Source: Aquamicrobium sp.
Lineage (GTDB): Bacteria > Pseudomonadota > Alphaproteobacteria > Rhizobiales > Rhizobiaceae
Length of the DNA: 64,000 nt
Assembly: GCA_019739225.1 (NCBI GenBank)
Contig: JAHHDT010000007.1
Coordinates: forward strand, 124,001 to 188,000
Direction: 5' to 3'
Part shown: positions 1,117 through 16,362 of the stretch, piece after piece
Numbering within the stretch: position 1 is the stretch's first letter
Layout of the letters: every line of letters starts with the position of its first letter
Translations under genes and position numbers: made by a program
Notes under the pieces: generated by a model
Databases searched by the model: none
What the model saw: the letters and a program-made list of their open reading frames with translations, nothing else
Told to the model about the DNA's origin: nothing

Positions 1117-1563
1117 CTACTGGCTTTCGGGGAAGCGCATGAAGGCGCGCGCATGGCCACTGTCCAGCACGGCCTCGAATGGCTCCACGCTCGTCAGCGT
1201 CCAGCCGTCCCGGCTTTCGCCGCGCCGCAGGCTGAAGACGCTGTTGTCGTAGCTGACACGGAAGAGCGCGCTGCGAAGCCTTTCCGATCGCACCACGCCG
1301 ATGAGCTGCCACTGCGGCGCCTGTTCCGGCGTCGCCTCCGGCAATTCAGGTTCGGGTTCCGGTTGCGGCTCAGGCGTTGCCGCCGGGGCCGCGGCGATGC
1401 GAGCGGGCGGCTGCCGATCGGGAGAGAAGAGAGGACGATCCCGCAGAGCCGCATAATCCTGGGCCAATCTGGAGCCGACTGCGCGCTCGCTGCCGGTCTG
1501 CGCCGACAGCGGCGCTGCGACGAGCAGAAGCAGAAAGGCGATTGCGACTGGCCACAGCTTCAT
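1117..1563 (-). CDS. GspC/GspN-like protein with a homology-region (HR) domain
   Basis: 148 residues from the ATG at 1561-1563. An N-terminal signal or anchor (WPVAIAFLLLLVAAPLSA) is followed by LRDRPLFSPDRQPP, a motif seen at the start of the periplasmic part of GspC/GspN-type proteins. A proline/glutamate linker (about residues 60-85) leads to an HR-like domain, WQLIGVVRSERLRSALFRV to GWTLTSVEPFEAVLDSG. No PDZ domain is present and the protein is about half the length of a classical GspC (around 270-300 residues). No other gspC is visible in the locus, so this is the likely inner-membrane connector to the secretin. It sits 7 bases after gspM. Confidence 0.6.
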   Translation of the reverse strand: MKLWPVAIAFLLLLVAAPLSAQTGSERAVGSRLAQDYAALRDRPLFSPDRQPPARIAAAPAATPEPQPEPEPELPEATPEQAPQWQLIGVVRSERLRSALFRVSYDNSVFSLRRGESRDGWTLTSVEPFEAVLDSGHARAFMRFPESQ

Positions 1564-1570
1564 CGGGCGG

Positions 1571-2176
1571 TCACAGCTCCCGGATCCAGAACGCGGAAAC
1601 GCCGAGCTGCAGGTTGAGCGCACGGTCGCTGCCGGTATCGGCGGCTGCGTCGAAGGCTCCACCGGCGGAGCGATTGGGGCGCAATGTAACCGCGTCGACG
1701 ACCATCAACGGCAGGGTCGTCTCCAGCGCATAAAGCAGGTCTGGCAGAGTTTGTTCGAGAACTTCGACACTTGCCTCGAGATGCAGACGCATCAACTCGC
1801 CATCCATTTCAGTCGACACTCCCTCGACCCGCTCGCTCTCGCGAATGTCGAGTGAGCGCACCAGTGCCCCGGCATCCTCGACGAGGCGCGTGAAATCGCG
1901 CTGAAACTCCGCCGATGCCAGTCCCGATGTGTCGCCCGCTATCAGCCTGTTGCGCGAGATCGAGCCTCCGGCTGCGTCTTGCGAACCGCCCGCGAGTTCG
2001 GCCGCGCGCGCCTCCAGCAGGCGCGTGCGCTGGCGAAGCTCGACAACGGCTCCACGTTGGGCCCGGACCGTCGATACCGCGTCGACGATGACCACCACGG
2101 CTGCGCAGAGGAAGATCGCGACAACCGCGAGGCTCAGGAATCGACGGTCGACCCAGCTTCCGGCTGTGCGGCTCAT
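1571..2176 (-). CDS. gspM: Type II secretion protein GspM
   Basis: 201 residues. A short cytoplasmic N-terminus is followed by one membrane helix (FLSLAVVAIFLCAAVVVIVDAV), then a coiled-coil-prone stretch (RGAVVELRQRTRLLEARAAEL) and a periplasmic ferredoxin-like part ending VSAFWIREL. This layout matches GspM, the partner of GspL in the inner-membrane assembly platform. The start codon overlaps the gspL stop (ATGA at 2173-2176), which indicates translational coupling. The sequence itself is poorly conserved, as is usual for this family, so the call rests on topology and position between gspL and the connector gene. Confidence 0.75.
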   Translation of the reverse strand: MSRTAGSWVDRRFLSLAVVAIFLCAAVVVIVDAVSTVRAQRGAVVELRQRTRLLEARAAELAGGSQDAAGGSISRNRLIAGDTSGLASAEFQRDFTRLVEDAGALVRSLDIRESERVEGVSTEMDGELMRLHLEASVEVLEQTLPDLLYALETTLPLMVVDAVTLRPNRSAGGAFDAAADTGSDRALNLQLGVSAFWIREL

Positions 2177-3252
2177 TTCAGTTCGCCTCCCGAGCGGATG
2201 AGAGGTCGCGTCTCGAGGGTGAAGAGCGAAGAGCGTTCGTCTTCGCCGCGGACGGCAGGGCCGACCAACGCGCTGTCGGCGAACCGGCCCGAGGACTCGA
2301 GCGCCGTCAGCACGTCCGGCAGATCAAAGGTTCGACCGGCCAGACGCAGCCTGCCCTCCGCGAGCGCGATTTCGGTTGCGAAGGAATGCACGGGCAGTGC
2401 GGCCGCCAGATCATCGAGCGCGCCGAGAGCGCTGATCGCCTCGTTCTTGATGTCGATGGCCGCCTGTTCGGGTGCGGTGCCAGCAGTCTGCGGCGCCATC
2501 AATTCGCTTATGGTAGCTCTTGCGGCGTCGGCCCTGATCTCCAGATCGGCCTGCTGTCCCGATCGATAGATGCCGTGGGCGACGGTAACGCCAAACGCAA
2601 CGAGCATCGAGGCTGTTGCGGCTGAAAGCAGAAGGCCAAGCCCGAGCTTGATGCGGCCGAGCGTGGCCGTGCGACCGGCGCGACGCGGGTAGAGCACGAT
2701 GCGCGTGCCCTGCTGCGCCTGTGCCACCACCTCAGTTTGCCGCGCGCCGGCGGTCTCGATCAGGTCTATCATCGGTGCCACGCGCGCCTTGGGCAGTAGT
2801 GCAATGTCGACACGCATGCGTCTTGCGGCGCTGTCGTTTCCAGCCACGGCATGCCCGTAAAGCATATCCTGAACCGGCAGCGGCGAGAGCGATGCCACAC
2901 GTGCGGCGACGATGCCTTCGAGGTGATCGCCTGCCTCTTGCGGCAGCTCGATGCGGCGTTCGATCACCCACGCTCGCGGCGCGATGAGCACCACGCGCTG
3001 GCCCTTGACCAGCGGCGCGAGCGCGCCTGCCTGGACCTGCCGATCGCCGCCCAGTTGCAAGGGCAGCGATGCTTCGGCGGACCCGCCCTTGCCGGTGCTT
3101 CGCAGCGCCAGGGCTGTTCCATCGTCGGCAAGACGCGCCTCCACGGCAGTGTGACGGCGACCTGCCTGCCATCGCTCGGCAAGCAGCGAAGCCGGCCCTT
3201 CGAGCCAGCTATCCAGCACCTGCAAGGCGGTGCGGAGTGCCTGCTGCATCAC
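2173..3252 (-). CDS. gspL: Type II secretion protein GspL (PilM/PilN-like)
   Basis: 359 residues. The N-terminal cytoplasmic half is actin-like/PilM-like (VVLIAPRAWVIERRIELP, SLSPLPVQDMLYGHAV). One transmembrane helix follows (LGLGLLLSAATASMLVAFGV), then a PilN-like periplasmic half (IYRSGQQADLEIRADAA). GspL normally recruits the GspE ATPase through its cytoplasmic domain and pairs with GspM. The protein begins with two methionines (3252 and 3249), and either could be used. A 46-base gap separates it from gspK upstream, and it overlaps gspM downstream by four bases. Confidence 0.8.
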   Translation of the reverse strand: MMQQALRTALQVLDSWLEGPASLLAERWQAGRRHTAVEARLADDGTALALRSTGKGGSAEASLPLQLGGDRQVQAGALAPLVKGQRVVLIAPRAWVIERRIELPQEAGDHLEGIVAARVASLSPLPVQDMLYGHAVAGNDSAARRMRVDIALLPKARVAPMIDLIETAGARQTEVVAQAQQGTRIVLYPRRAGRTATLGRIKLGLGLLLSAATASMLVAFGVTVAHGIYRSGQQADLEIRADAARATISELMAPQTAGTAPEQAAIDIKNEAISALGALDDLAAALPVHSFATEIALAEGRLRLAGRTFDLPDVLTALESSGRFADSALVGPAVRGEDERSSLFTLETRPLIRSGGELK

Positions 3253-3298
3253 TTGCCTCCACGCGAAGACGCATCCGGTTCTGCTTTTGCAGGTTCGG

Positions 3299-4156
3299 TC
3301 AGTCTACTTCCTCCGTCGCGCCGCGCCAGTCAAGCACGCGGTAGGGCACGGTGTCGTTGCCGGCGATCAGGATCAGCGCCTCGCGCGCTTCCGTGTATCC
3401 GTTGGAAAGCGTCACATTGAGCTTTGCCTGCCATACCTGTGAACGTGTGGTGGTGTGCAACTCGCTCTCCGCGAGAATGGCGTCGAGCTGCGCTTGCGAA
3501 ATCCGACCGGCGCGGTGAGCGGAAATTGCGTTGCGGATCGTGCGCGGCAGGTTGGGTATGACGCTCAAGAGTGCGTCGTCGATGCCATCGAGCCGCACGC
3601 CTTCGAGGCCCGACGAGACCGTGGCATAACGCGCGGCGCGAATGGCGACGGCAGCCGGCATATCGGGCAGGAAGGCGAGTTCGTCCATCGATTGCAGCGG
3701 GCCGATGGGTGACCGGTCGGCCGCCTCGCGCATCTCGACCAAGGTCTTTGTCAGCGTACCGGCCAGAGCTCGCGTTGCTCCGGCGGCAATCAGAACGCCT
3801 TCGACAAGATCAGGTGCTGCCCGATTGAGATCGACGCGCAGGGCTTCGTTGCGCAGTGAAGCGCCGGCTGTGCCGGAGGCGAGCGACACGTCTGCATTCG
3901 CCTCGTAGCCGATACGGCGCGGGCCTTCGACGGGTGCTGCGCGAACGCGGGCCGCTGCCATTGCCAGGCCGGCATCGGCCAGCGTGCTTGCAATCGCCTT
4001 GTCCTCGGTCATGCGTACGCTTTGGGTAACGCTTTGCATGTGAACGCTGAGCACTACCGCGAGCCCCGACAGCAGTACCGTAATCCAGAGGACGCCGACG
4101 AGGATCGCGCCCCGGCGTGGATGAGGGCTCGTGAACTGGTTTGCCGTTGAACTCAT
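3299..4156 (-). CDS. gspK: Type II secretion minor pseudopilin GspK
   Basis: 285 residues. A prepilin-like leader ends in HPRRG, followed by AILVGVLWITVLLSGLAVVL. The residue at +5 after the predicted cleavage is not glutamate, which is the hallmark of GspK, the tip pseudopilin. The large globular domain contains DLNRAAPDLVEGVLIAAGA and RSPIGPLQSMDELAFLP, the helix-hairpin segments typical of the GspK alpha domain. It is the first gene of the leftward gspKLM operon and lies downstream of the protease gene, from which it is separated by a strong hairpin. The gspI and gspJ partners are in the rightward block at 9978-10999. Confidence 0.88.
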   Translation of the reverse strand: MSSTANQFTSPHPRRGAILVGVLWITVLLSGLAVVLSVHMQSVTQSVRMTEDKAIASTLADAGLAMAAARVRAAPVEGPRRIGYEANADVSLASGTAGASLRNEALRVDLNRAAPDLVEGVLIAAGATRALAGTLTKTLVEMREAADRSPIGPLQSMDELAFLPDMPAAVAIRAARYATVSSGLEGVRLDGIDDALLSVIPNLPRTIRNAISAHRAGRISQAQLDAILAESELHTTTRSQVWQAKLNVTLSNGYTEAREALILIAGNDTVPYRVLDWRGATEEVD

Positions 4157-4372: not shown

Positions 4373-7300
4373 TTACTGCACGACCGCCGTCAGGCCGGCC
4401 GTCTGGCGCCGGCCGGCGTCGCAGCCGTCCGTGCCGATGGTGCAGACCGTCACGCTGGCCGTGCCGACCACCGTCGAGCCCTGGCGGAAGTGGACGTAGA
4501 GCCGGGTGGCGGGATCATAGGCGATCTCGCTGCCCTGGTGGTCCACGAAGGCCGCGAAGGTCACCGGCGTGTTCGAGGCCGCCTCGAAGGTGACCGAGGG
4601 TGCGCGCGCGCCGATGCAGGTGCTGGTCGCCGGATCGGTCCGGCAGATCGACATGCCCGCAGGCAGTGCCGAAGCCGCACCGGCAACCGGCGACAGCGAC
4701 AGCTCGGCCGTCAGCGTCGCACTCGCTCCGGCGTTGTTGACGGCAAGGCTGGTGAAGCTGCCGCCGCCTGCCGGAACCCGCAGGATGCCGTCATTGCTCG
4801 GCGTCACCACGGTGGAGACGAGCTCGACGCGATCGCTGCCGGCCGATGGAGCAGGCTGCCGGGCGGCAGGCTGCGAGGCCGGTTGCGAAAGGGCTGCAAC
4901 CGCAACCTCGCCCGCACCGCCGGACCCGCCAGCCGAAACACCGGCCGGCCCGTCCTGCTGGACCGCCAGCGGTGCCGCCGCCAGCCGTGCCGGAGACTGT
5001 GCCGGAGCGTCGGAGGCGGTGATGCTCGAAGCCGCGGCTGCCGGCTCGACCGGTGTTGCCTCCACGGCGTTTGCGCCGACCGCATAGGTGCCGCGACCCG
5101 GCTCGCCGCCCACGATGTTCAGGCGGATGTTGCCGCTGCGGTTGCCGTAGCCGGCGATCGCGATCTGGTACTGGCGGCCGGCGATCGCACGGAAATGAAC
5201 CCGCGACTGGCGGCCGAAGCCCCGATAGTCCTTGTTGGAGGCGATCTCCGAAAGGTGACGCAGGGAGCCACGGACATAGACTGCGAGGATGGTGTCGAAA
5301 TCACTGCCCCTGGTGTCGATGACCACGCGGCCGGTGCTCTGCGGGGTGAAGCGGTACCACACGCTGTTGCGGGCGTTGGCCCAACCGGCATGGATCGGCT
5401 CGAAACGCTGGGCCGTCGCATAGTGGTTGGTCGACGTTACCGTCCGCCTGGAGCCGACACGTGACGGCGGATAAACGTTCCGGCGCACCTCGAAATCATC
5501 GTGTGGCGGGCGTGCCGTGGATGCCGAGCCACCGGTGACATTGAGGCGAACGTTGCCAGTCGCATTGTTATATCCTGCAACTGCGATCTGATACTGAGTT
5601 CCGGCCGTGCCGTTGAACGTCACGCTCGACTGAAGAGCACCGCCGGCATCGTCGTTCGAAGCCACTGAACTCAAGGCGCCGACCGAAGAGCCCGTATAGA
5701 CTGCGAGAACGGTGTCGAAGCTGCTGCCGGCCGTCGTGATGGTGATCGAACCGGATGCGGCTGGCCTGAAGCTCCACCAGACGCTGGTCCGCGCGCCCGT
5801 CCTTCCAGCATGGAACGGCTCGCCGGTCTCCGCTGTGGCACCAACGTTCGAGCCCGTCACAGTGCGTGTGGATCCTGCAGCAGGTACGGCCACCGCGATG
5901 CGGTTGGCGAAGTTGTTGTTCGCCGGCCCGGTCGGATCCGGGTCGGGATCGCCTCCGCCACCGAGAGAAAGCCGGGCGCTATTGACGTTGATGCGCGGCT
6001 TGGTGACGCCGTGCGCCGAAATGCCGGTGCCCGTCGCCTTGAGCGCGTTTTCGATCTGGTCGACTGTCGCATTGGGATGCGCGGTGCGCAGGGCAGCGAA
6101 AGCACCCGCCACATGCGGAGAAGCCATCGATGTGCCCGAAAGCGACGAGAACTGCGAGTTGCTGCTGCCGTTGATGTAGGAAGCAACGATGCTCGAACCG
6201 GGCGCCACAACGTCGATCAGCGAACCCCAGTTCGAGAAGTCCGATTTGACATCGCTCTTCGTTGCGGAACCCACGGTTACGGCGCTCGAGATACAACCCG
6301 GCGCTCCTACGGAGTTCGTGAAGTACTCGTTGCCGGCGGCGATGACGGTAGCGATACGAGCCGCCTTGAGCTGATCGATGATCGGCTTGCGCGAGTCACT
6401 GTCGCAGTTGCTGAAATGCTGCCCGCCGCCGAGGCTCATGTTGATTGAAGCGATGTTGTAGGTGTTCCGCAGCGCGTAGACGCGCTCCAGACCGCTGATC
6501 TGGTCGCTGGTATAGGTCAGCACGCAGCTATTGTAGCCTGAGGGCAGTCCGCCACACTGGCTGGCAGGGAACTGCGAGAAGACATTGATCGAGATGATGC
6601 GCGCGTCGCGTGCGACACCGTTTGAGGGCTGGCCAGACTGCGGCGAGGTATTGAAGCCTGCCGCGGTACCCGCAACGTGCGTGCCGTGGCCGCAGCCATA
6701 GATGTTGCTTGCCGTGCAGTCTTCACCGGAGCCGGTTGCGGTCGAAGAAGTAGCTCCACCCGGGCAGCGGCTCGTCGAACCGTGCTGGGCAAAAGTCGAG
6801 TTGTAGCAAGCTTCCGACACGATGCGGCTGGACAGGAACTGGTGGCTGCGCCGACCGCCCGTGTCGAGGATGGCAACGTGATAACCGTTGCCCGTCGCGC
6901 CGGCCGAATACATTGCCGGCATCTGGATGATCGGCAAAGACTGGATCAGGGACGGTGGGACTGCCACGTCCTCCTGAATCACCGTCACATTTGGATCGGC
7001 GGCCAGTTTGGCCAGATCGTCCGCATCGGCGAGGATGCCGAACATCGGCGAGAAATCCATCCGCTTCAGGTTCCGCTCTTCGGTCGCCTGAGCGGCGGAA
7101 CGCGTGCTGGACGGCAACACCGCGCCGAGGATCTTATCCTGCGCGGCATGAATCGCCTTGGTCTGCGCGTCATCTGCTGCCTTCGCGCTTGCGAACGTGG
7201 CTGCGTCAGGCAGTGCGGGCATGCTGAACTGGACGATCACCGGGAGCTTCGACCCCGGTTGTGCGGTGAGCTTGGACCAAAGCTCATTGTGCCCTTCAAC

Positions 7301-7432
7301 CTTCTGCGCAACGGCAGCAGGCGCGGCGTCGGCAGCGATCGATGGCGTCGCCATCATGCCACCAGCGAGAAACAGGCCGGACGCAATCGCCCCCAGCAGC
7401 TGCTTTCTCAAAGCAACTGTTTTCCCCACCAT
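4373..7432 (-). CDS. Secreted subtilisin-like (S8) serine protease with paired C-terminal beta domains; candidate T2SS substrate
   Basis: 1019 residues. A signal peptide (about 1-34) and an inhibitor-I9-like propeptide (about 60-155) precede the S8 catalytic domain. The triad is readable: Asp190 in HVAILDTGG, His249 in GCGHGTHVAGT, Ser435 in LSGTSMASPH, with oxyanion Asn368 in AAGNEY. After a DPDPDPTGP linker come two similar domains of about 120 residues (about 505-625 and 640-765; shared features SVWW/YxF, FDTILAVY, QYQIAVAGYNN), which resemble pre-peptidase C-terminal domains. An alanine/proline-rich linker and a final beta-rich domain with several cysteines follow. The start is supported by AAGGAGG six bases before the ATG. 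Its place inside the T2SS locus makes it a likely exported substrate (inference). Confidence 0.9.
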   Translation of the reverse strand: MVGKTVALRKQLLGAIASGLFLAGGMMATPSIAADAAPAAVAQKVEGHNELWSKLTAQPGSKLPVIVQFSMPALPDAATFASAKAADDAQTKAIHAAQDKILGAVLPSSTRSAAQATEERNLKRMDFSPMFGILADADDLAKLAADPNVTVIQEDVAVPPSLIQSLPIIQMPAMYSAGATGNGYHVAILDTGGRRSHQFLSSRIVSEACYNSTFAQHGSTSRCPGGATSSTATGSGEDCTASNIYGCGHGTHVAGTAAGFNTSPQSGQPSNGVARDARIISINVFSQFPASQCGGLPSGYNSCVLTYTSDQISGLERVYALRNTYNIASINMSLGGGQHFSNCDSDSRKPIIDQLKAARIATVIAAGNEYFTNSVGAPGCISSAVTVGSATKSDVKSDFSNWGSLIDVVAPGSSIVASYINGSSNSQFSSLSGTSMASPHVAGAFAALRTAHPNATVDQIENALKATGTGISAHGVTKPRINVNSARLSLGGGGDPDPDPTGPANNNFANRIAVAVPAAGSTRTVTGSNVGATAETGEPFHAGRTGARTSVWWSFRPAASGSITITTAGSSFDTVLAVYTGSSVGALSSVASNDDAGGALQSSVTFNGTAGTQYQIAVAGYNNATGNVRLNVTGGSASTARPPHDDFEVRRNVYPPSRVGSRRTVTSTNHYATAQRFEPIHAGWANARNSVWYRFTPQSTGRVVIDTRGSDFDTILAVYVRGSLRHLSEIASNKDYRGFGRQSRVHFRAIAGRQYQIAIAGYGNRSGNIRLNIVGGEPGRGTYAVGANAVEATPVEPAAAASSITASDAPAQSPARLAAAPLAVQQDGPAGVSAGGSGGAGEVAVAALSQPASQPAARQPAPSAGSDRVELVSTVVTPSNDGILRVPAGGGSFTSLAVNNAGASATLTAELSLSPVAGAASALPAGMSICRTDPATSTCIGARAPSVTFEAASNTPVTFAAFVDHQGSEIAYDPATRLYVHFRQGSTVVGTASVTVCTIGTDGCDAGRRQTAGLTAVVQ

Positions 7433-7859: not shown

Positions 7860-9059
7860 ATGGCGGGCTTCGCCTACAAAGCGGTAACACAGGAAGGGCG
7901 GCTGGAGACAGGCGAACTCGAAGCGGCTGACGCCGAAGCGGTTCTGCGCATCCTGGACCGGCGCGGCCTGATCCCCGTCAGCGTGGATGAACGCAAATCG
8001 GGGTCTTCGAGTAGCAGCGCGCAACGGTTGAATGTCGCCGCACCACTGGTCACCCGCTTCCTTTCCGATCTTTCGATCATGATCAATGCCGGTATTCGCG
8101 TCGACGAGGCGCTGTCGATCATGGAGCGCGAGTTCGACAATGGCCGGTTGCGGCCCGTCGTTTCCAGGCTTCGCGGCGAGCTGGCGAACGGCAGGTCGTT
8201 CTCGCAGGCTCTCGAGGATTGGCCGCGCCTGTTTCCGCCTTTCCAGATTGCGATGATCCGCATCGCTGAACGTGCGGGGCGGCTGCCGGTGCTGCTCGCC
8301 CGCGTCGCGGAAGAACGCCAGCGCTTCGAGGGGCTTGCCGCCAAGGTCGCAGAATCGCTTCGCTATCCGGCTTTCCTGCTGGTCGGCGTCGTGGCGGTGA
8401 TGACCTTTTTTCTCCTGGGCGTCGTGCCGCAATTCGAGCCCGTGCTGGCGCAGACCGGTCAGGCGAACGGTTTCGTCGAATTCATGTTTGCCGTTTCCCG
8501 TGGCCTGCGGAACAACCGCGACCTCATTCTTGCGGGCGCGGCGATGCTGCTTCTGGTAGGGCTGCTTGCAGGCCGCCGGGCCACGTTCCGTGCGCGGCTT
8601 CGAAATCTGGTCGCCCGCCTTCCGTTTCTGTCGGACATCGCAATGAGCTATCGGACGGCGCGCTTTTCGCGCCTGATGGGCATCATGGTCGAAGCCGGGG
8701 TCGGCGTGCCGGCTGCAATCAAGCTGATCGGTGACGCCATTGACCCCGCGGACCCAGATAGGCGGGCGGAACGCGCCTCCGATGCCGTGCGACAGGGACG
8801 CCGGATCGGCGAGGCGCTGGAGATCATGACGCTGCCGGGGCTGGCCGTGCGGATGTTGAGGATCGGCGAGGAAAGCGGCGATCTGAGCGGGCTTGCCTAT
8901 CGGGCGGCGGATTTTTATGAAGCAAGGCTGGAGCGCCAGCTTTCGCGGCTGGTCGGCTTTATCGGTCCTGCTGCTGTGATCATAATTAGCGTCTTGATCG
9001 GCGGCATGATCGTGTCAATCATGTCAGCGCTGATGTCCTTCAACGAACTGGTGCGATAG
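7860..9059 (+). CDS. gspF: Type II secretion inner-membrane platform protein GspF
   Basis: 399 residues, the family's usual length. The N-terminal signature FAYKAVTQEGRLETGELEA is followed by two GspF cytoplasmic domains (about 60-180 and 265-385), each followed by hydrophobic helices (FLLVGVVAVMTFFLLGVVPQF; AVIIISVLIGGMIVSIMSAL). Conserved family residues include ITRF-like VTRFLSDLSIMINAGIRVDEAL and ARFSRLMGIMVEAGVGVPAAI. It forms the inner-membrane core that couples the GspE ATPase to pseudopilus assembly. It is the first gene of the rightward gspFGHIJ block, nine bases before gspG. Confidence 0.93.
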   Translation: MAGFAYKAVTQEGRLETGELEAADAEAVLRILDRRGLIPVSVDERKSGSSSSSAQRLNVAAPLVTRFLSDLSIMINAGIRVDEALSIMEREFDNGRLRPVVSRLRGELANGRSFSQALEDWPRLFPPFQIAMIRIAERAGRLPVLLARVAEERQRFEGLAAKVAESLRYPAFLLVGVVAVMTFFLLGVVPQFEPVLAQTGQANGFVEFMFAVSRGLRNNRDLILAGAAMLLLVGLLAGRRATFRARLRNLVARLPFLSDIAMSYRTARFSRLMGIMVEAGVGVPAAIKLIGDAIDPADPDRRAERASDAVRQGRRIGEALEIMTLPGLAVRMLRIGEESGDLSGLAYRAADFYEARLERQLSRLVGFIGPAAVIIISVLIGGMIVSIMSALMSFNELVR

Positions 9060-9068
9060 GGTGGGAGC

Positions 9069-9506
9069 ATGGGTGGTATAGGTCCGGCAGTATCGGATGC
9101 AGGCAGGGCAAGGCCGCGCAACAGGGCGCGTCGCCGCCGGGCGGGCTTCACGCTGGTCGAAATGCTGGTGGTGCTCGCGATCATCGGGCTCATCTCCGCG
9201 CTGGTCGGCCCACGGCTCATCGGGCAGTTGACGGAGTCCCGCGAACGCGCGGCCGAGCTGCAAATCCGTGCGTTTTCCAGCGCGCTGGACATCTTCTTCA
9301 TCGATGTCGGCCGCTATCCGACGCAGTCTGAAGGGCTGCGAGCCCTGGTCGAGGCGCCGTCCAGCGCGCAGTCGTGGAACGGGCCATATCTGCGCGGCGG
9401 TGCGGTGCCGCTCGACCCCTGGGGGCAGGAATATCGCTATTCCGCCGACGGTGGTTCATACAACATCGTGACCATGGGACCGGACGGGGTCGGTGCCACG
9501 CAGTAA
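9069..9506 (+). CDS. gspG: Type II secretion major pseudopilin GspG
   Basis: 145 residues. The leader is long and arginine-rich (ARPRNRARRRRAG), followed by the class III cleavage motif G/FTLVEMLVVLAIIGLISALVG with Glu at +5. The C-terminal part has the GspG calcium-site region (GRYPTQSEGLRALVEAP, WNGPYL, PLDPWGQEYRY) and ends GPDGVGA. GspG polymerises into the pseudopilus after processing by the GspO peptidase at 11731-12282. Its last 14 bases overlap gspH. Confidence 0.95.
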   Translation: MGGIGPAVSDAGRARPRNRARRRRAGFTLVEMLVVLAIIGLISALVGPRLIGQLTESRERAAELQIRAFSSALDIFFIDVGRYPTQSEGLRALVEAPSSAQSWNGPYLRGGAVPLDPWGQEYRYSADGGSYNIVTMGPDGVGATQ

Positions 9507-9981
9507 CCACAGCGCCGAACACAGCCTCGGCTTGCGCAGCAAGCGCCGGTCGCGGCGCGGCGTCGTATTGCTCGATCTGGTTTTGACGCTGGCTGTGATA
9601 GCGCTTGCGGCTTACGTTCTGATGCCTGTGCCGACCCATTCTCTGTCTCATAACGACGTCAAGGCGGATGCCGTGCGGGCGGCAGCCATTTTCCGGCAAG
9701 CGCGAACCGATGCGATCCGAAGCCACGCGCCCATCGATGTGGTGGTCGACGCAATGGACGGCTTCATTCTTGGACCTGGAGAGCCATTGCAGGTTCGCGA
9801 CGACATTCGTCTGGTATGGTCGACATCCAGCCAGTGTCCGCTCGACGCCGGGCGGCGCGCTCTGCGGTTCCTTCCCGACGGGCGTTCCTGCGGTGGCGTC
9901 CTGTCCCTGAGCGGGGCGGGCCACGAGGCGCGCTTGCGCGTCGACTGGCTGACCGGCCGCGTCGAACTGGCATCGCAATGA
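9493..9981 (+). CDS. gspH: Type II secretion minor pseudopilin GspH
   Basis: 162 residues from a GTG at 9493. A leader ending KRRSRRG is followed by VVLLDLVLTLAVIALAAYVL. The +5 residue is Asp rather than the usual Glu. The body is beta-rich (FRQARTDAIRSHAPIDVVVDAM, IRLVWSTSSQCPLDAGRRALRF), as expected for the GspH globular domain. Its identity follows from the prepilin-type helix and from its position between gspG and gspI. Its stop overlaps the gspI start (ATGA). A later start nearer the arginine-rich leader would also be acceptable. Confidence 0.8.
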   Translation: MPRSNHSAEHSLGLRSKRRSRRGVVLLDLVLTLAVIALAAYVLMPVPTHSLSHNDVKADAVRAAAIFRQARTDAIRSHAPIDVVVDAMDGFILGPGEPLQVRDDIRLVWSTSSQCPLDAGRRALRFLPDGRSCGGVLSLSGAGHEARLRVDWLTGRVELASQ

Positions 9982-10340
9982 CAAAGGCCCGGCGCGGCTT
10001 TACGCTGATCGAGGTGATGGCGGCATTCGTCATCGCCCTCGTACTTATCGTTCCGCTGGCCTCGATCATATCGGGGATATCCGGTTCGTTCGGGGGGCTT
10101 CAACGATCCGTCGAGCGGCGCGCCAATCTGCAGCTTGCCGCCGCCGCTGCCATGGCGGTCAATCCTTTGAGGGCCGGGGACTTCACATTGGGCGATTTTC
10201 GCGTGGAGGTGCGCCCGCGCGTCGACGAGCAGACAGCGGACCTGCGACGAGCGGGCTGGCAACTCTATACGCTGAGTGTCAGTCGCCCTTCAGTGTCTTC
10301 CGCGCCCATCGTGGAGACGGTGCGGAGCGCCCCGCTTTGA
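9978..10340 (+). CDS. gspI: Type II secretion minor pseudopilin GspI
   Basis: 120 residues from the ATG at 9978, chosen because it overlaps the gspH stop and gives a compact leader, MTKARRG/FTLIEVMAAFVIALVLIV. The processing site and Glu+5 are canonical. The short C-terminal domain (NLQLAAAAAMAVNPLRAGDF, WQLYTLSVSRP) fits GspI, the smallest pseudopilin, which forms the tip complex with GspJ and GspK. A frame extending upstream to 9816 lies inside gspH and is not needed. Confidence 0.85.
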   Translation: MTKARRGFTLIEVMAAFVIALVLIVPLASIISGISGSFGGLQRSVERRANLQLAAAAAMAVNPLRAGDFTLGDFRVEVRPRVDEQTADLRRAGWQLYTLSVSRPSVSSAPIVETVRSAPL

Positions 10341-10999
10341 GCGTTGCCGGCCTCAGAAGGGCGAAGCGCGGCTTTACCTTGATCGAAGCGCTGCTGGCGC
10401 TGTTGCTGGCCTCGATCCTGTTTGCGGGCATCGCGCTTTATACCGGTAGTTGGGCGGGCCAGTGGCACCGCATCACCCTGCTCAGTGCGAACCAGGATGT
10501 GGCGGCAATCGTGCTCGACCGCATGGTGGAGGAAATCGAGGCGGCGCAGCCGGCACTGGTGTTCGAGGGCGGCACGGTTGCCGGCACCTTCGAAGGCCAC
10601 GCGCAATCGGTGAGTTTCGTGCGTCCGGCACTCGGCTTCGAACGCAGGGCGGGGCTCGATCGCGTCAGCTACGGGTACGGTTCGATCGACGGAGAGCCTG
10701 CGGTCATGCGCATGCGTCGCGATTATGGGCCGGAGGCAGGAAGTGGGGGTGAAGATCTGCCACTGATGCGTGGCGACATTCGCCTGTCGTTTTCCTACCG
10801 GGCGGCCGACGGAGCCTTCGTCGATGAGTGGACCGGCCAGCGCGTGCTGCCGTCTCTGGTTCGCATCGAGATATCTGGCTCGGATCCGCGGCCGTGGCAA
10901 CAGGTGGCTTATGCGCGGCCGCGCGCGGAGATGCCGGCGGCGTGCGCCACGCAGGAACTCGTGCAGGAATGCCTCCGGCTTATGGGGCGAAGCGGCTGA
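10337..10999 (+). CDS. gspJ: Type II secretion minor pseudopilin GspJ
   Basis: 220 residues from a TTG at 10337 that overlaps the gspI stop. The leader SVAGLRRAKRG is followed by FTLIEALLALLLASILFAGI, a canonical prepilin site with Glu+5. The globular part (VAAIVLDRMVEEIEAAQPAL, LSFSYRAADGAFVDEWTGQ, PSLVRIEISG) matches GspJ in length and pattern. It is the last gene of the rightward block and runs convergently towards the DGLP-repeat gene, with only 27 bases between the two stops. Confidence 0.87.
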   Translation: MSVAGLRRAKRGFTLIEALLALLLASILFAGIALYTGSWAGQWHRITLLSANQDVAAIVLDRMVEEIEAAQPALVFEGGTVAGTFEGHAQSVSFVRPALGFERRAGLDRVSYGYGSIDGEPAVMRMRRDYGPEAGSGGEDLPLMRGDIRLSFSYRAADGAFVDEWTGQRVLPSLVRIEISGSDPRPWQQVAYARPRAEMPAACATQELVQECLRLMGRSG

Positions 11000-11026
11000 C
11001 AATGGTCGAGGCAGGGGGTTCGCCGA

Positions 11027-11614
11027 TCATTCGCCGAGGCCGCTATCCGTCAGGTTCTTCTTCTCAAGCATCCGGGTGGCGAAATCCTCTGCCAGTTTTT
11101 TCTTGGCGACATCCAGCGGGTCCTTGTCGCCGGGCGAGGGCTTGTCCGCTTCTTTCGGCGGGTCGTAGGGCATGACAGGCAGGCCATCGATGGCCGGGCC
11201 GGGGCCGGGCATCATCGGCAGACCGTCGATCCCCGGCTCGGGGACGAAGGGCAATCCATCGGCGATCGGTTGGGGCATGAAGGGCAGGCCGTCGATTGCA
11301 GGCTGCGGCATCATCGGCAGGCCGTCCACTCCTGGCTCGGGCATAAAGGGGAGGCCGTCGACGGTCGGGTGAGGCATGAAGGGCAGCCCGTCGATGACAG
11401 GTTCAGGCATGTAAGGCAGCCCATCGATCACTGGGGCTGGCATCGCGGGCAAGCCATCGGCGACGGGACCCGGCTGGAAGGGCAGCCCGTCGGGTTTCGG
11501 CGAAGGCTGGAAGAAGGCAGCGCTGTCTTCCATTCCTTTTGGAGAACCGTGGTTCTGCTTCGTCACGTCGCGCCACTGCGCGCCATTGTGCAGATTTCCT
11601 GGAATCGTCGTCAT
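11027..11614 (-). CDS. DGLP-repeat protein (ten 11-residue repeats), third gene of the gspD-gspO block
   Basis: 195 residues with no family I recognise. Residues 39-150 are ten consecutive units of consensus P-x-[IVA]-D-G-L-P-x-M-P-x. All are 11 residues except the ninth, which has 13 (MMPGPG). The variable positions are mostly aromatic or methionine (F, Y, M, A, V) and the closing residue is A, E, H, Q or G. An N-terminal polar segment of 38 residues has no signal peptide. The C-terminal 45 residues are lysine- and aspartate-rich (DKPSPGDKDPLDVAKKKLAED) and probably helical. It lies 116 bases downstream of gspO on the same strand. It may be a T2SS accessory or an unrelated low-complexity protein; the function is unknown. 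Confidence 0.75.
   Translation of the reverse strand: MTTIPGNLHNGAQWRDVTKQNHGSPKGMEDSAAFFQPSPKPDGLPFQPGPVADGLPAMPAPVIDGLPYMPEPVIDGLPFMPHPTVDGLPFMPEPGVDGLPMMPQPAIDGLPFMPQPIADGLPFVPEPGIDGLPMMPGPGPAIDGLPVMPYDPPKEADKPSPGDKDPLDVAKKKLAEDFATRMLEKKNLTDSGLGE
11165..11500 (-). repeat. Coding 33-bp tandem repeat array (ten units)
   Basis: The DNA behind residues 39-150 of the DGLP-repeat protein repeats with a 33-base period (one unit of 39). On the plus strand each unit carries a core close to GGCAGGCCGTCGAT. Copies differ at many third positions and in the variable codons, so the array is diverged rather than freshly duplicated. It stays in frame throughout. Confidence 0.9.
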
Positions 11615-11730
11615 CCTGCCCGCCTCGCCTTCAAAGGTCCGTTTTGCTCACCCCCACGACTGTTCGAGGAGCGGAATCGCGCAGGCTGGAACCTATCGTC
11701 TCGGCCTTGCGCGGGCCTTGTGGACGGCGG

Positions 11731-12282
11731 TTACGGGACGATCCAGGCCCATACGAGGACGAGGGCAGGCGCGAGAAAGGTCGCAAAGGGTATGCGTGTC
11801 ACTGCACGCAACGGGCGCCGGCGCCGACCGGCGCGGAGGGCCGTGAATGTGAGAGCTGCGACGGATGCAAACAGGATCTGCATGCCCACGCCCCACAGTC
11901 CGACAAGCAGGGCGGAAGCCGACAGCAGTTTCACATCGCCGAAGCCGAGTCCCGAACGGCCGCGCAGTCGCTCATACAGCAGGGTTGTCAGCATCAGGCC
12001 GGCGGCGAGGATGGCGCCCTCCGTCAGTGCCACGCCCAGGCCTGCCCAGCCATGCGTGGTGAAGGCGAGTGCCGCCGCAACGATAGCGATCGCGGCGGTG
12101 TAGCCATCGGGGATCAGCATCCGGGCAAGATCCTCGATGGCAATCGCCGCGGCCAGGACGCAGAGCAACAACCATGCTGCCTGCTGCAACGGCGGCTTGC
12201 CGAGCATCGGCGGAATGGTGGCGGCGACGAGGAGACAGGCCATGATCGCGATGGCCTGCCAGGTTACCCGCGGCAGCGTCAT
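11731..12282 (-). CDS. gspO: Prepilin peptidase, short form (GspO/CpaA-like, A24 family)
   Basis: 183 residues with about six hydrophobic segments. The two catalytic aspartates of the A24 family are visible: EDLARMLIPD (about residue 50) and GFGDVKLL (about residue 113). The N-terminal cytoplasmic methyltransferase domain with its cysteine motifs, present in full-length GspO/PilD (about 270 residues), is absent, so this is the TadV/CpaA-like core only. It would cleave the leaders of GspG, H, I, J and K. The start overlaps the gspD stop (ATGA at 12279-12282), so it is translated with the secretin. Confidence 0.87.
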   Translation of the reverse strand: MTLPRVTWQAIAIMACLLVAATIPPMLGKPPLQQAAWLLLCVLAAAIAIEDLARMLIPDGYTAAIAIVAAALAFTTHGWAGLGVALTEGAILAAGLMLTTLLYERLRGRSGLGFGDVKLLSASALLVGLWGVGMQILFASVAALTFTALRAGRRRRPLRAVTRIPFATFLAPALVLVWAWIVP

Positions 12283-14519
12283 TCTATAAGGGTGCGTGCC
12301 GGGCGCTGCAGCGGCACGTTGCGGCTCGGCGTTCCCATGACACGCAGTTGAGAGCGCATCTGCTCGGCCACATTCTGTGCGTCGAGGCTGTCGCGGATGA
12401 TCTGTGGGCGGATCAGCACGATCAGTTCGGTGCGTGTCGCCCGGTTGGTGTTCGTGCGGAAAAGATCGCCGATGATGGGGGCGTCGCCGAGGATCGGGAT
12501 GCCGTCGCGGCCCTTGGTCTGGTTCTCGCTGATGAGGCCGCCCAGCAGGACCGTCTGGCCGCTGGCAACCGAAACGGTCGAGTTCACCTTGCGCTGCGAA
12601 ATCGTCGGGGTCAGTGCCGGCGATCCCCGGGCGACCGAGCTGATCTCCTGCTCGATGAGCAGGTTGATGGTGCCATTGGCCGTGATGCGCGGCAGAACGT
12701 TGAGGATGACGCCCGTATTGCGGAACTCGACATTGTTCACGATCGGGGCATCGGGATCGTCGATTGTCTGCGCCGTGCGGGTGACGACAGGCACCTCGTC
12801 ACCGACCAGCAGGCTTGCGGTTCGGTTGTCGAGAACCACCACGGATGGCGACGAAAGGACCTTCACCTCGGTCACGCCGCGCAGGGCGTCGATGATCACG
12901 CGAGGATCGCTTTCAGGTCCCAAAAGAAGGTTGAAACCGGGCAGCACCCGGTCAATCGCGGCAGCGCCAACATCGCGAAACAGGCCGATCGAACCGTCAT
13001 CGTCCCCCAGCCCGAGGTCCTGTGATTTCAGGAAGAACTGGACACCATAGCGCAAATCGTTGGTGAGCGTCACTTCCGCAATGGTGGCCTCGATCGCGAC
13101 CTGTGCAGACGGGCGGTCGAGGGCGATGATCGCCTGTTCGATGACCCGCTGCTGGTCCGGGCGCGCATAGATCAGGATCGAGTTGTTTTCCGGATTGGCC
13201 GTGATGCGGACATTTTCCAGCAACGCTTGACCGCCTCCGATGGGCGCAGACGGTTGCGGCTGCTCGGCCGCGAAGGCTTCGCCGTTATTCTGCTCCTCGG
13301 ACAGCGCCGATGCCATGGCCATCGGCTCATCGGTGCCCTGCTGCAGCGTCGGCGTAGAGCCCGGCGGGAATTGGCGCGACGGGTCGTCCTGTGCGGATGC
13401 GCCACCCGTGAAGAGCGCGTTGACCATGGAGGCCAGCCGGCGGGCATCGGCGTGCTGCACCCGGTAGACGCGCAGATTGGAGCCGGCGACGTTCGTCGTA
13501 TCCAGACGCTTGATCCAGCTTGCGGCGCGCTGCAGCAACTGGTTTGTACGCGCGACCACCATGATCGTATTGGTGCGGTCGATGGGCTGCAGGCTGACCG
13601 TGTTGCGGCCGCGGCCGCCTTCGTTCAGCCCCAGCACACGCTCGAGCTCGGGGATCATCGCGGCCGGCGTCGAGTTCTCGATCGGGAACAGGCCAACCGA
13701 CTGGTCTGCGAGCCAGTCCTGGTCGAACGAGCGGGCCGCCGCGATCGCTGCTCGCCGTTCCTCCGCCGTTCCCTGGAATATCAGCGAATTGCCCCCGGCA
13801 TCGGCGCGCACCATGCCCTGGCGCGTCACGAAGTTTTCGAGCAGCGGCAGGATGGTGTCTGCCGAGACATGGCGCAGCGGCAAGATCGTCGCGCCGTAGC
13901 CGGGCTGGATGGTCACGCTCTGGTCGAGCTGGGCCACGCCCATAGCCTCCGCGGCCACCATGAGCCTGAAACGGTTGCCTTCGCGGACCAGCGCGATGTC
14001 GTTGCTGCGCAGCGAAGCCTCGAACATGGAGAGGATCTCGGCTGCCGGAACAGGCCTCGCCGTCACAATCGAAATCTGGCCGGTGACGCGCGGGTCGATC
14101 ACGTAGCTGATGCGCAGGATCTCACCGAGAATCGTACGCGTTGCCACCGCTACTTCGGCGCTGTCGAGATTGACCTCGAAGGTTTCCCCGCTGGTGACGA
14201 CCGGCGACAACTCGCTTGCCTGCCCCACAACCGACGTGCGATCCGTGCCACCGTAGAGCTGTGCCTGGGGGTTGTTGGCGCGCCCGAAGCCGAACGAGGA
14301 AAGAAAACCGCCACCCGACGGGTTTCTCGCGCTGAGGTCTGCGTTGGTTGCGCGCTCAAGCGGATCGGGCCGCATGGCTTCTTCGATATTCTTGCCGGAA
14401 ACGCAGGCTGACAGCAAAAGGGTCGCTGCACCCAGCACCGTCGCGAAACGCGCGCGCTTGGCCGCGACGATGTCCCCGCTCCCAACTTTCACTAAAATAC
14501 CCCGACAAGTACGCGACAT
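12279..14519 (-). CDS. gspD: Type II secretion outer-membrane secretin GspD, predicted lipoprotein
   Basis: 746 residues. The N-terminus carries a lipobox-like LLLSAC (Cys39) followed by VSGKN. Next come N0 (FEVNLDSAEVAVATRTIL), N1-N3 domains (for example ATILPLRHVSADTILPLLEN; LRVYRVQHADARRLASMVN) and the C-terminal secretin domain with VEATIAEVTLTNDLRYGVQF, SSPSVVVLDNRTASLLVGDEVPV and TVLLGGLISENQ. A linker rich in Q, E and A sits in N3. It forms the outer-membrane channel. A GTG at 14490-14492 is an alternative start; the ATG at 14517-14519 has no obvious ribosome site and lies six bases from a TATAAT. Confidence 0.93.
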   Translation of the reverse strand: MSRTCRGILVKVGSGDIVAAKRARFATVLGAATLLLSACVSGKNIEEAMRPDPLERATNADLSARNPSGGGFLSSFGFGRANNPQAQLYGGTDRTSVVGQASELSPVVTSGETFEVNLDSAEVAVATRTILGEILRISYVIDPRVTGQISIVTARPVPAAEILSMFEASLRSNDIALVREGNRFRLMVAAEAMGVAQLDQSVTIQPGYGATILPLRHVSADTILPLLENFVTRQGMVRADAGGNSLIFQGTAEERRAAIAAARSFDQDWLADQSVGLFPIENSTPAAMIPELERVLGLNEGGRGRNTVSLQPIDRTNTIMVVARTNQLLQRAASWIKRLDTTNVAGSNLRVYRVQHADARRLASMVNALFTGGASAQDDPSRQFPPGSTPTLQQGTDEPMAMASALSEEQNNGEAFAAEQPQPSAPIGGGQALLENVRITANPENNSILIYARPDQQRVIEQAIIALDRPSAQVAIEATIAEVTLTNDLRYGVQFFLKSQDLGLGDDDGSIGLFRDVGAAAIDRVLPGFNLLLGPESDPRVIIDALRGVTEVKVLSSPSVVVLDNRTASLLVGDEVPVVTRTAQTIDDPDAPIVNNVEFRNTGVILNVLPRITANGTINLLIEQEISSVARGSPALTPTISQRKVNSTVSVASGQTVLLGGLISENQTKGRDGIPILGDAPIIGDLFRTNTNRATRTELIVLIRPQIIRDSLDAQNVAEQMRSQLRVMGTPSRNVPLQRPARTLIE

Positions 14520-14616: not shown

Positions 14617-14670
14617 GCATATGAGACAACGCCGGCCTGGGCGATGTCAGTGAACGAGCAAGGAAACGGC

Positions 14671-16362
14671 ATGAATATCCACGATCCGGCGCTCGAGGGG
14701 CGGGCGATGCTCGAAGCGATCGCGGATGCCGGTCTCGCCGCTCTGGGCGCGATGGAGCGTGTTATCGGCGCCGGCGGCATTGTCCGTGCTTCGGATATGC
14801 ACCGCCTGGTCGACGCTCAACTCGTCGATGCCGATGCGCTGGCGGCCTTTCTGGCCAGCCGATATGGCTTGCGGCTGCTGGGCGGTGATGCGCTTGAGGA
14901 ACTCGAGATTGCGGCGTCGGACCTGTCGCACCGGTTTCTTGTCGACAACTGGCTCCTCCCGATGCGCTCCACGGACGGCCGGCGACTGGTGGGGGCGCTG
15001 CATCCCGGCGACAGCGAGCCGCTCGATGCGCTTTTTGCCGTCCTCGACGAGCATGCTGAACTTTGCGTCGTTTCATCTCCCGACATGGAAGCGCGGCTCG
15101 AGCGTCTTGCCGACGCGCAAGCTCCAGAGGGAACCGCCGAGGCCTCGCTTTCCTCGGAAGAAGCGATCGCCGATCTGCGCGACATGGCAAGCGGCGCGCC
15201 GGTGGTCATGGCCGTCGACGACATTTTTCGCCGCGCCATCGACCTGCGGGCGACCGACATCCATCTCGAACCCATGCGCGGTCGCCTCGTTCTGCGCTTT
15301 CGCATCGACGGGGTGCTGCGCATCATGACGCCGCCTGCGGCGGATATGGGCGAGCCTATCGTCTCTCGTGTCAAGGTTCTGGCGGGGCTCGACATTGCGG
15401 AACGCCGCAGACCGCAGGACGGCGGCATGCGTCTCAAGGTGCGCGATCGAGACATAGAGATGCGCGTGGCGACGCTCCCGTCGATCCATGGTGAAACGCT
15501 GGTGATGCGTATCCTGCAGCGCGACGGTGCCTTGGTCGACTTGGGCAGCATCGGGCTGCGCGGCCGGGACATGGAAACGCTGCACCGGCTTCTGGAGCAT
15601 ACCCATGGCATGATCGTCGTCGCCGGCCCCACCGGTAGCGGCAAGACGACGACGCTGGCTGCGGCCCTGTCGCGCCTGAACGATCCGGGCCGCAAGATCG
15701 TCACCATCGAGGATCCGGTCGAATACCAGATACCCGGCATCGTCCAGTCGCAGGTGCAGCCGGCCATCGACCTCACGTTCTCTTCGGCGATCCGCGCATT
15801 CGTGCGCCAGGATCCGGACATCATCCTCGTCGGCGAGGTGCGCGATCCGGAAACCGCCCGCGCGGCGATCCAGGCGGGTCTCACCGGTCACCTCGTGCTC
15901 ACCACGGTCCATGCCAATACGGCGGCCGCGGCATTCACGCGTTTGCGCGATCTCGGGATCGAGAACTATCTGCTCGTCGGCGCTGTTCGGGGCGTCGTTG
16001 CCCAGCGGCTGGTTCGGCGGCTGTGCGAACATTGCAAGCGGCCTTCCACTATCGCTCCCGACCTGTTGGCAGGCGACCCGCGCTATTCGGCCGTGGGTTT
16101 CCGGGCGGGCGATCAAGTGTTCGAGGCCGTCGGCTGCGCCCGTTGCGCGGATGCAGGCTATCGCGGCCGTATCGCGGTATTCGAAATCCTCACGCTGGGC
16201 GAGGAGGTCGTGCACCTCACATCCGAGGGCGGCGACAATGCCAGGATCGAGGCAGCCGCGCTGAGGGGCGGCATGACGACGATGGCCGACGACGCCGTGG
16301 GCAAGGCTCTTGACGGGTTGACGTCCCCCTCTGAGGTCGTGCGCGTGACCGCGCTGCGATAG
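14671..16362 (+). CDS. gspE: Type II secretion ATPase GspE
   Basis: 563 residues from the ATG at 14671, chosen for AGGA six bases upstream; an in-frame ATG at 14644 would add nine residues. Domains: N1E region (about 1-140), N2E (ATDIHLEPMRGRLVLRFRIDG) and the RecA-like ATPase with Walker A GPTGSGKTTTL, Asp box (IVTIEDPVEYQI), Walker B (PDIILVGEVRDPETA) and His box (TGHLVLTTVHANTA). A tetracysteine zinc motif follows (CEHCKRP and CARCADAGYRGR). It powers pseudopilus assembly through GspL/GspF. It is the only gene of its block, divergent from gspD and convergent with tctA. Confidence 0.95.
   Translation: MNIHDPALEGRAMLEAIADAGLAALGAMERVIGAGGIVRASDMHRLVDAQLVDADALAAFLASRYGLRLLGGDALEELEIAASDLSHRFLVDNWLLPMRSTDGRRLVGALHPGDSEPLDALFAVLDEHAELCVVSSPDMEARLERLADAQAPEGTAEASLSSEEAIADLRDMASGAPVVMAVDDIFRRAIDLRATDIHLEPMRGRLVLRFRIDGVLRIMTPPAADMGEPIVSRVKVLAGLDIAERRRPQDGGMRLKVRDRDIEMRVATLPSIHGETLVMRILQRDGALVDLGSIGLRGRDMETLHRLLEHTHGMIVVAGPTGSGKTTTLAAALSRLNDPGRKIVTIEDPVEYQIPGIVQSQVQPAIDLTFSSAIRAFVRQDPDIILVGEVRDPETARAAIQAGLTGHLVLTTVHANTAAAAFTRLRDLGIENYLLVGAVRGVVAQRLVRRLCEHCKRPSTIAPDLLAGDPRYSAVGFRAGDQVFEAVGCARCADAGYRGRIAVFEILTLGEEVVHLTSEGGDNARIEAAALRGGMTTMADDAVGKALDGLTSPSEVVRVTALR

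Follow-up and report, generated by a model that had tools for sequence, protein, structure and literature searches.

The window, i.e. the whole 64,000-nucleotide stretch of Aquamicrobium sp. DNA analysed here, contains a T2SS gene cluster and, within it, a gene encoding tandem DGLP repeats. The features are as follows, in window coordinates:

1117..4156, minus strand: gspK, gspL, gspM and a short GspC/N-like gene (T2SSM_b and PilN profiles)
7860..9059, plus strand: gspF (profile)
9069..10340, plus strand: pseudopilins gspG, gspH and gspI (profiles; gspI by prepilin motif and place only)
10337..10999, plus strand: pseudopilin gspJ (N_methyl; weak protein J match, 24.6 bits against a cut-off of 295)
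11027..11614, minus strand: DGLP-repeat gene, an open reading frame of 195 aa with an ATG start at 11614 (dN/dS 0.084 over residues 63-195)
11030..11167, minus strand: C-terminal tail, residues 150-195 (sole predicted helix 166-189, pLDDT about 55-64)
11168..11491, minus strand: ten DGLP[F/M/Y/A/V]xP units, residues 42-149 (period 11, one interval of 13)
11504..11614, minus strand: N-terminal segment, residues 1-37 (without a hydrophobic stretch; likeness among relatives within that of shuffles)
11731..12282, minus strand: prepilin peptidase gspO (Peptidase_A24), upstream of the DGLP gene across a 116-nt gap
12279..14519, minus strand: secretin gspD (TIGR02517, above cut-off)
14644..16362, plus strand: gspE-like ATPase (T2SSE; TIGR02533 at 503 bits, under the cut-off of 630)

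The genes run in the order gspC/N-like, gspM, gspL and gspK (minus); an S8 peptidase gene (minus); gspF-G-H-I-J (plus); the DGLP gene, gspO and gspD (minus); and gspE (plus). Profiles back GspD, GspE, GspF, GspG, GspH, GspM and the prepilin peptidase as members of a T2SS cluster, and the prepilin motif is present in both GspI and GspJ. The name gspK was given from position and size only, and that of the GspC/N-like gene from its place, its size and a weak match. The DGLP gene is tail-to-tail with gspJ, with 27 nt between them. Its stop-to-stop open frame is 206 aa, so that at most 11 further codons could lie upstream of the ATG; by eye, a putative ribosome site lies 5' of the gene.

DGLP occurs ten times in the window protein, all exact, starting at residues 42, 53, 64, 75, 86, 97, 108, 119, 130 and 143. 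The spacing is 11 residues in eight of the nine intervals and 13 in the remaining one. In composition-preserving shuffles (n = 10,000) the mean DGLP count was 0.04 and the maximum 2, and not one of the 10,000 contained a DGLP pair at 11 residues, as against eight pairs observed. Tandem Repeats Finder detects the array too, with periods of 33 and 99 nt. These results confirm the array that a preliminary description of this DNA had noticed: ten repeats of about 11 residues in a 195-residue protein. The unit given there, P-x-[IVA]-D-G-L-P-x-M-P-x, was correct in its core but is slightly idealised elsewhere; M is found in only 8 of the 10 units (unit 1 has Q and unit 8 has V instead), and the first unit has P rather than I, V or A before the D.

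The coding status of the gene was examined by comparison with Neoaquamicrobium sediminum (formerly Mesorhizobium sediminum; strain KCTC 42205). Over residues 63-195, the portion of the N. sediminum copy that is free of a frame break, 113 of 133 residues are identical in an ungapped comparison, with dS 0.89, dN 0.075 and dN/dS 0.084. By part, dN/dS is 0.097 in the repeats and 0.061 in the tail (residues 151-195). The other two sense frames give values of 2.8 (+1) and 4.2 (+2), and the antisense frames 1.09, 0.17 and 3.1; the frame at 0.17 is taken to be the one whose third positions coincide with those of the gene. For the same pair of genomes, the control genes gave 0.038 (gspD), 0.053 (gspF), 0.066 (gspJ), 0.144 (gspO) and 0.147 (gspH). 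The DGLP gene is thus real and under purifying selection similar to that on the neighbouring gsp genes, and its frame is conserved between close relatives; a frame that is not conserved was one of the refutations named in the preliminary description.

The repeats also differ among themselves at silent positions. Whole 33-nt units within the window protein have pS 0.677 and pN 0.269. Over all pairs of units taken together, the DGLP codons show 107 synonymous differences (pS 0.68) and two nonsynonymous ones, a number that is low partly by construction since the units were chosen by those letters; more generally, because units were selected as DGLP or GLP, their invariance is no independent evidence. 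When the eight N. sediminum units are aligned to the last eight of the window, seven are exact DGLP and one is EGLP, with a repeat dS of 0.88. The N. sediminum copy shifts frame between its second and third units. As tctA, gspI and the S8 peptidase gene at the same locus (L037) are also split by frame changes, an indel error in the assembly is the likelier cause.

Four genomes carry the gene: those of the window (G000), G003 and N. sediminum (G004), all of one genus, and G151, which belongs to another. A search of 100 relatives gave four matches, of which the three from the window's genus were kept and one was dropped. Three of 394 genomes of the family had a match (G000, G003 and G151), and the one match among 289 class genomes was the window's own; both sets are samples of larger groups, with few candidates scored per genome. 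Within the genus of G151, one of five genomes matched, which was G151 itself and already in the profile, while three other genera with similar T2SS clusters yielded the gene in none of 2, none of 1 and none of 20 genomes. Of 71 candidate stretches from a scan of genome contigs, one was confirmed as a relative, that of N. sediminum. No match was found in phages at E ≤ 0.001, and none of 98 candidates in viral contigs was confirmed. A match in G007 (E 3.7e-4, 24% identity) was rejected, since it falls in a charged, repetitive segment of a 601-residue protein that is unrelated. Four plasmid records were likewise dropped: the best, from Candidatus Bandiella, is on the strand opposite an annotated CDS, and the three from Streptomyces are annotated as pentapeptide-repeat proteins.

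The G003 protein has 260 residues and 17 DGLP units, spaced by 11 except for one interval of 8. The G151 protein is 179 residues long, with five GLP units at a spacing of 11, in which S or G replaces the D, V and F alternate and the spacers are acidic. The latter was recovered at E 4.3e-8 by a profile (A1) built without it, and its full-length score against the window protein (120) exceeded those of all 2000 shuffles (maximum 75), which destroy the repeats. With its N- and C-terminal parts alone, the score was reached by at least 283 of 5000 shuffles; the tails are thus not alike beyond shuffles, and the case for homology is made by the repeat and the position. Given the shared period, core and place, the G151 protein is a probable homologue, with convergence a possible alternative. 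Between the window and G003 proteins the C-terminal tails are alike (score reached in 25 of 5000 shuffles), whilst the N-terminal parts are not (686 of 5000). Mean unit identity within a protein is 0.67 (G000), 0.70 (G003) and 0.65 (G151), compared with 0.61 between G000 and G003 and 0.38-0.40 between genera; this comparison left out 1 of 10, 2 of 17 and 1 of 5 units, respectively.

Within the window's genus, all three carriers have gspD, gspO and the DGLP gene in that order, followed by a convergent gspJ. In G151 (locus L025), the DGLP-type gene is again tail-to-tail with gspJ, but gspO and gspD follow gspK on the other side of the cluster. The gap to gspJ is 27 nt in N. sediminum, as in the window, and 15 nt in both G003 and G151. 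Since gspJ is tail-to-tail with the gene in all four carriers despite the altered cluster order in G151, it is gspJ that is the steady neighbour. Accordingly, the earlier placement of the gene 'in the secretin operon' holds for one genus only, and adjacency to gspO for the three genomes of that genus but not for G151, whereas the expectation that relatives would lie at T2SS loci was borne out in four of four carriers.

The gene is optional in related T2SS clusters. We read the gspJ flank in ten of them (8 of 297 genomes from a gspJ search, plus N. sediminum and G393): four have the gene, and it is absent beside gspJ in the other six (G005, G310, G221, G142, G393 and G028). The locus of G371, which is close to G151, ends before gspJ. 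With a GspD search (E ≤ 1e-100), 16 of 151 genomes matched, one of them the window's own, and loci were examined for 11 of the other 15; in two members of this set, G171 and G031, gspK follows a weak gspJ match and there is no DGLP gene. Among the open reading frames of loci longer than 14 kb, pairs of G[LIVM]P spaced by 11 were seen in known carriers only, and in neither of two further loci. In a tree of seven concatenated Gsp proteins (12 clusters, 2463 columns, with several genes missing in some clusters), G151 and G371 group with the non-carriers G005, G310, G221 and G393 at a support of 99, and this group joins that of the window at 71. The gene may therefore be old and lost where the cluster split, or have been gained in two lineages. 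The locus of G005 (L051), which is of the window's genus, holds another T2SS cluster, with GspJ 54% and GspF 59% identical, a different gene order and no DGLP gene; because it groups with the clusters of other genera, the window's genus holds two T2SS lineages.

The preliminary description had recognised no family for the protein, and library searches agree. Pfam has no family for the window protein (E ≤ 1) or for two relatives (E ≤ 0.01), and PHROGs has none for the protein and its relatives. In NCBIfam the window protein matches only PspC_subgroup_2, at 8.8 bits against a cut-off of 500, and the two relatives match nothing; no PDB chain was found at E ≤ 1 with alignment A2. Literature searches on DGLP, undecapeptide and tandem repeats, on disordered scaffolds and on the T2SS of Rhizobiales, Aquamicrobium and Caulobacter returned no description among the matches listed, as far as their excerpts go. 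Within these libraries and this literature, the sequence family appears to be undescribed.

We also examined the proteins for an export signal, using a hydropathy scan rather than a signal-peptide predictor. Among 15-residue stretches that start within the first 45 residues, the highest hydropathy was 0.22-0.90 for the window, G003 and G151 proteins, compared with 1.83-3.37 for seven of nine control proteins of the cluster; the two low controls were gspL, whose span is at residue 205, and a 268-aa open reading frame whose start was probably set too early. As none of the three proteins has a hydrophobic N-terminus and so few codons are available upstream in the window protein, the lack of a signal peptide noted earlier is upheld. 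Over the whole window protein the maximum 15-residue hydropathy is 0.89, and no membrane span was found. A C-terminal amphipathic membrane helix was considered and rejected, as the helical moments were reached by 4084, 2626 and 922 of 5000 shuffles. The three proteins tested have no cysteine and a pI of 4.1-4.6. The best reading is of a soluble, cytoplasmic protein. Cargo of the T2SS must first reach the periplasm, and since no Sec or Tat signal was seen, the suggestion that the protein is itself a T2SS substrate is unlikely to be correct.

AlphaFold gave a mean pLDDT of 48.7 for the window protein from a four-row alignment, with residues 166-189 as the sole helix, and of 46.0 for the G003 protein from a single sequence, with helices at 24-44 and 234-249 only. 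Block means across the array were about 45-53 in the window protein (shallow, four-row alignment) and mostly 40-48 in the G003 protein (single sequence). Such low values, from shallow or single-sequence input, weakly suggest that the repeat region is disordered. The rigid binding ladder proposed in the preliminary description finds no support in models without regular structure or in arrays of 5 (G151), 10 (G000) and 17 (G003) units.

A motif kept by selection, with a drifting copy number and neither a predicted fold nor an export signal, is what would be expected of a multivalent docking array. Our preferred reading, held tentatively and with a little less than even confidence, is that the DGLP protein is a cytoplasmic, disordered array of short motifs that serves as an accessory tether of this T2SS. 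The middle of the protein would be a tandem short linear motif, [D/S/G]-G-L-P-[hydrophobic]-x-P, recurring about every 11 residues, with each unit forming one docking site for the same partner throughout. The array could then gather several copies of a cytoplasm-facing T2SS component, for which GspE or GspL are the obvious candidates, and the C-terminal helix might make a separate contact. As the number of units differs by lineage, the array would work through avidity rather than as a ruler. A T2SS component would be the most economical partner; alternatively, the array may tie the machine to a cell-organising protein. Binding by each unit, a partner within the T2SS and clustering as the result are all things that we infer. 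A broader and more speculative proposal, which we consider rather unlikely while giving it a substantial chance, is that this is the first of a family of cytoplasmic, multivalent, disordered scaffolds dedicated to the T2SS, in which an array of a new docking motif, GLP-x-x-P, would cluster the secretion motor or position it within the cell, and which would be gained or lost as an optional module next to gspJ.

The link between the DGLP protein and the T2SS is by position only, which leaves room for a cytoplasmic and disordered protein whose role is unrelated to secretion and which sits in the cluster through linkage or shared regulation. We judge this unlikely, but with an appreciable chance of being right. 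It fits the gene being on the strand opposite to gspJ and its absence from six of ten related clusters, including one in the same genus, a distribution that counts against the tether. It also fits the lack of a co-varying partner: in all seven Gsp proteins compared (GspD, E, F, G, H, J and L), carrier-only columns showed no clear excess over columns shared with the non-carrier control G142. An unrelated role sits poorly with four of four carriers keeping the gene beside gspJ although the cluster order changed between genera, and with there being no copy away from a T2SS among the 100 relatives and the family and class genomes, as sampled with few candidates each. A folded or extended regular array, such as a polyproline-like rod or a solenoid that spaces two components at a set distance, would account for the strictness of the 11-residue period and for the fixed places of Pro and Gly within it. 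We regard it as improbable given the range in unit number, the occurrence of an 8- and a 13-residue interval and the AlphaFold models, which may nevertheless miss polyproline-like chains.

An exported product, either a T2SS substrate or a surface protein, is a little more doubtful still: the gene does sit in a T2SS cluster, and repetitive low-complexity proteins are often extracellular, but this reading has to contend with the N-termini described above. Least probable of all, and to our minds very improbable, is a multi-core precursor peptide that is cleaved into short DGLP peptides after export. The layout of a leader-like segment followed by near-identical repeated units would suit such a precursor, and the S8 peptidase of the cluster weakly matches the PatA/PatG cyanobactin maturation protease (29 bits against a cut-off of 421). 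That match, however, ranks under mycosin and two other serine protease models, no precursor family was matched, and in both the window and G003 the gene is flanked directly by T2SS genes.

As a disordered tandem-motif protein, the tether that we favour has known parallels. Tandem short motifs recruit one partner by avidity in the DPF/DPW arrays of Eps15/epsin and in EPYC1; these are eukaryotic, unlike the DGLP protein, and are likened to it by description rather than by sequence. CsoS2 is described in three papers as the repetitive, disordered scaffold of alpha-carboxysomes (PMC11365436, PMC10484944, PMC11481516). As described there, it resembles the DGLP protein in disorder, repeated short motifs and machine assembly, where the DGLP protein would be the scaffold, and differs in motif and partner, a separation made by description and not by sequence.

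Accessory factors of the T2SS such as GspA and the pilotins act in or across the envelope. According to PMC9239104, GspB likewise does so: the secretin is anchored to the inner membrane through GspB, whose periplasmic homology region (HR) binds the N-terminal secretin domain, and the role proposed for GspB/OutB with GspA is, as here, that of an accessory that keeps T2SS components together. GspB differs in its inner-membrane anchor, the DGLP protein being without a membrane span, and in its periplasmic HR domain, for which neither the DGLP protein nor two relatives had a Pfam match. If the tether reading is true, T2SS organisation would gain a new layer on the cytoplasmic side, in the form of a soluble multivalent protein; a soluble accessory would be new for the T2SS, if confirmed. 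The 11-residue unit is a ready bait for a partner search. Should the protein be no T2SS factor, it would still offer a clean example from nature of a bacterial array of short motifs in which the unit is kept and the copy number is free.

Some further observations concern the surrounding cluster. The region 10000-13000 gave no Rfam match. Four terminator-like hairpins with T-rich tails lie inside the DGLP gene on the plus (gspJ) strand, at 11077-11148 and 11513-11530, and over 10900-12400, counting both strands, there are five terminator-like sites against 0.6 expected. A conserved terminator of the gspJ operon within the DGLP gene was considered and dropped, as the matching stretches of L036 and L025 have no such T-rich hairpins. 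The short GspC/N-like protein (1117-1662, minus strand) is found where a full GspC might be expected, and scores 21.6 bits with GspC against a cut-off of 150. The S8 peptidase (4373-7432, minus strand; 1019 aa) is hydrophobic and signal-like at its N-terminus, shows a PPC domain below threshold, and is a likely substrate of this T2SS. None was seen in the cluster of G003, and one is present in that of G028, which is without the DGLP gene.
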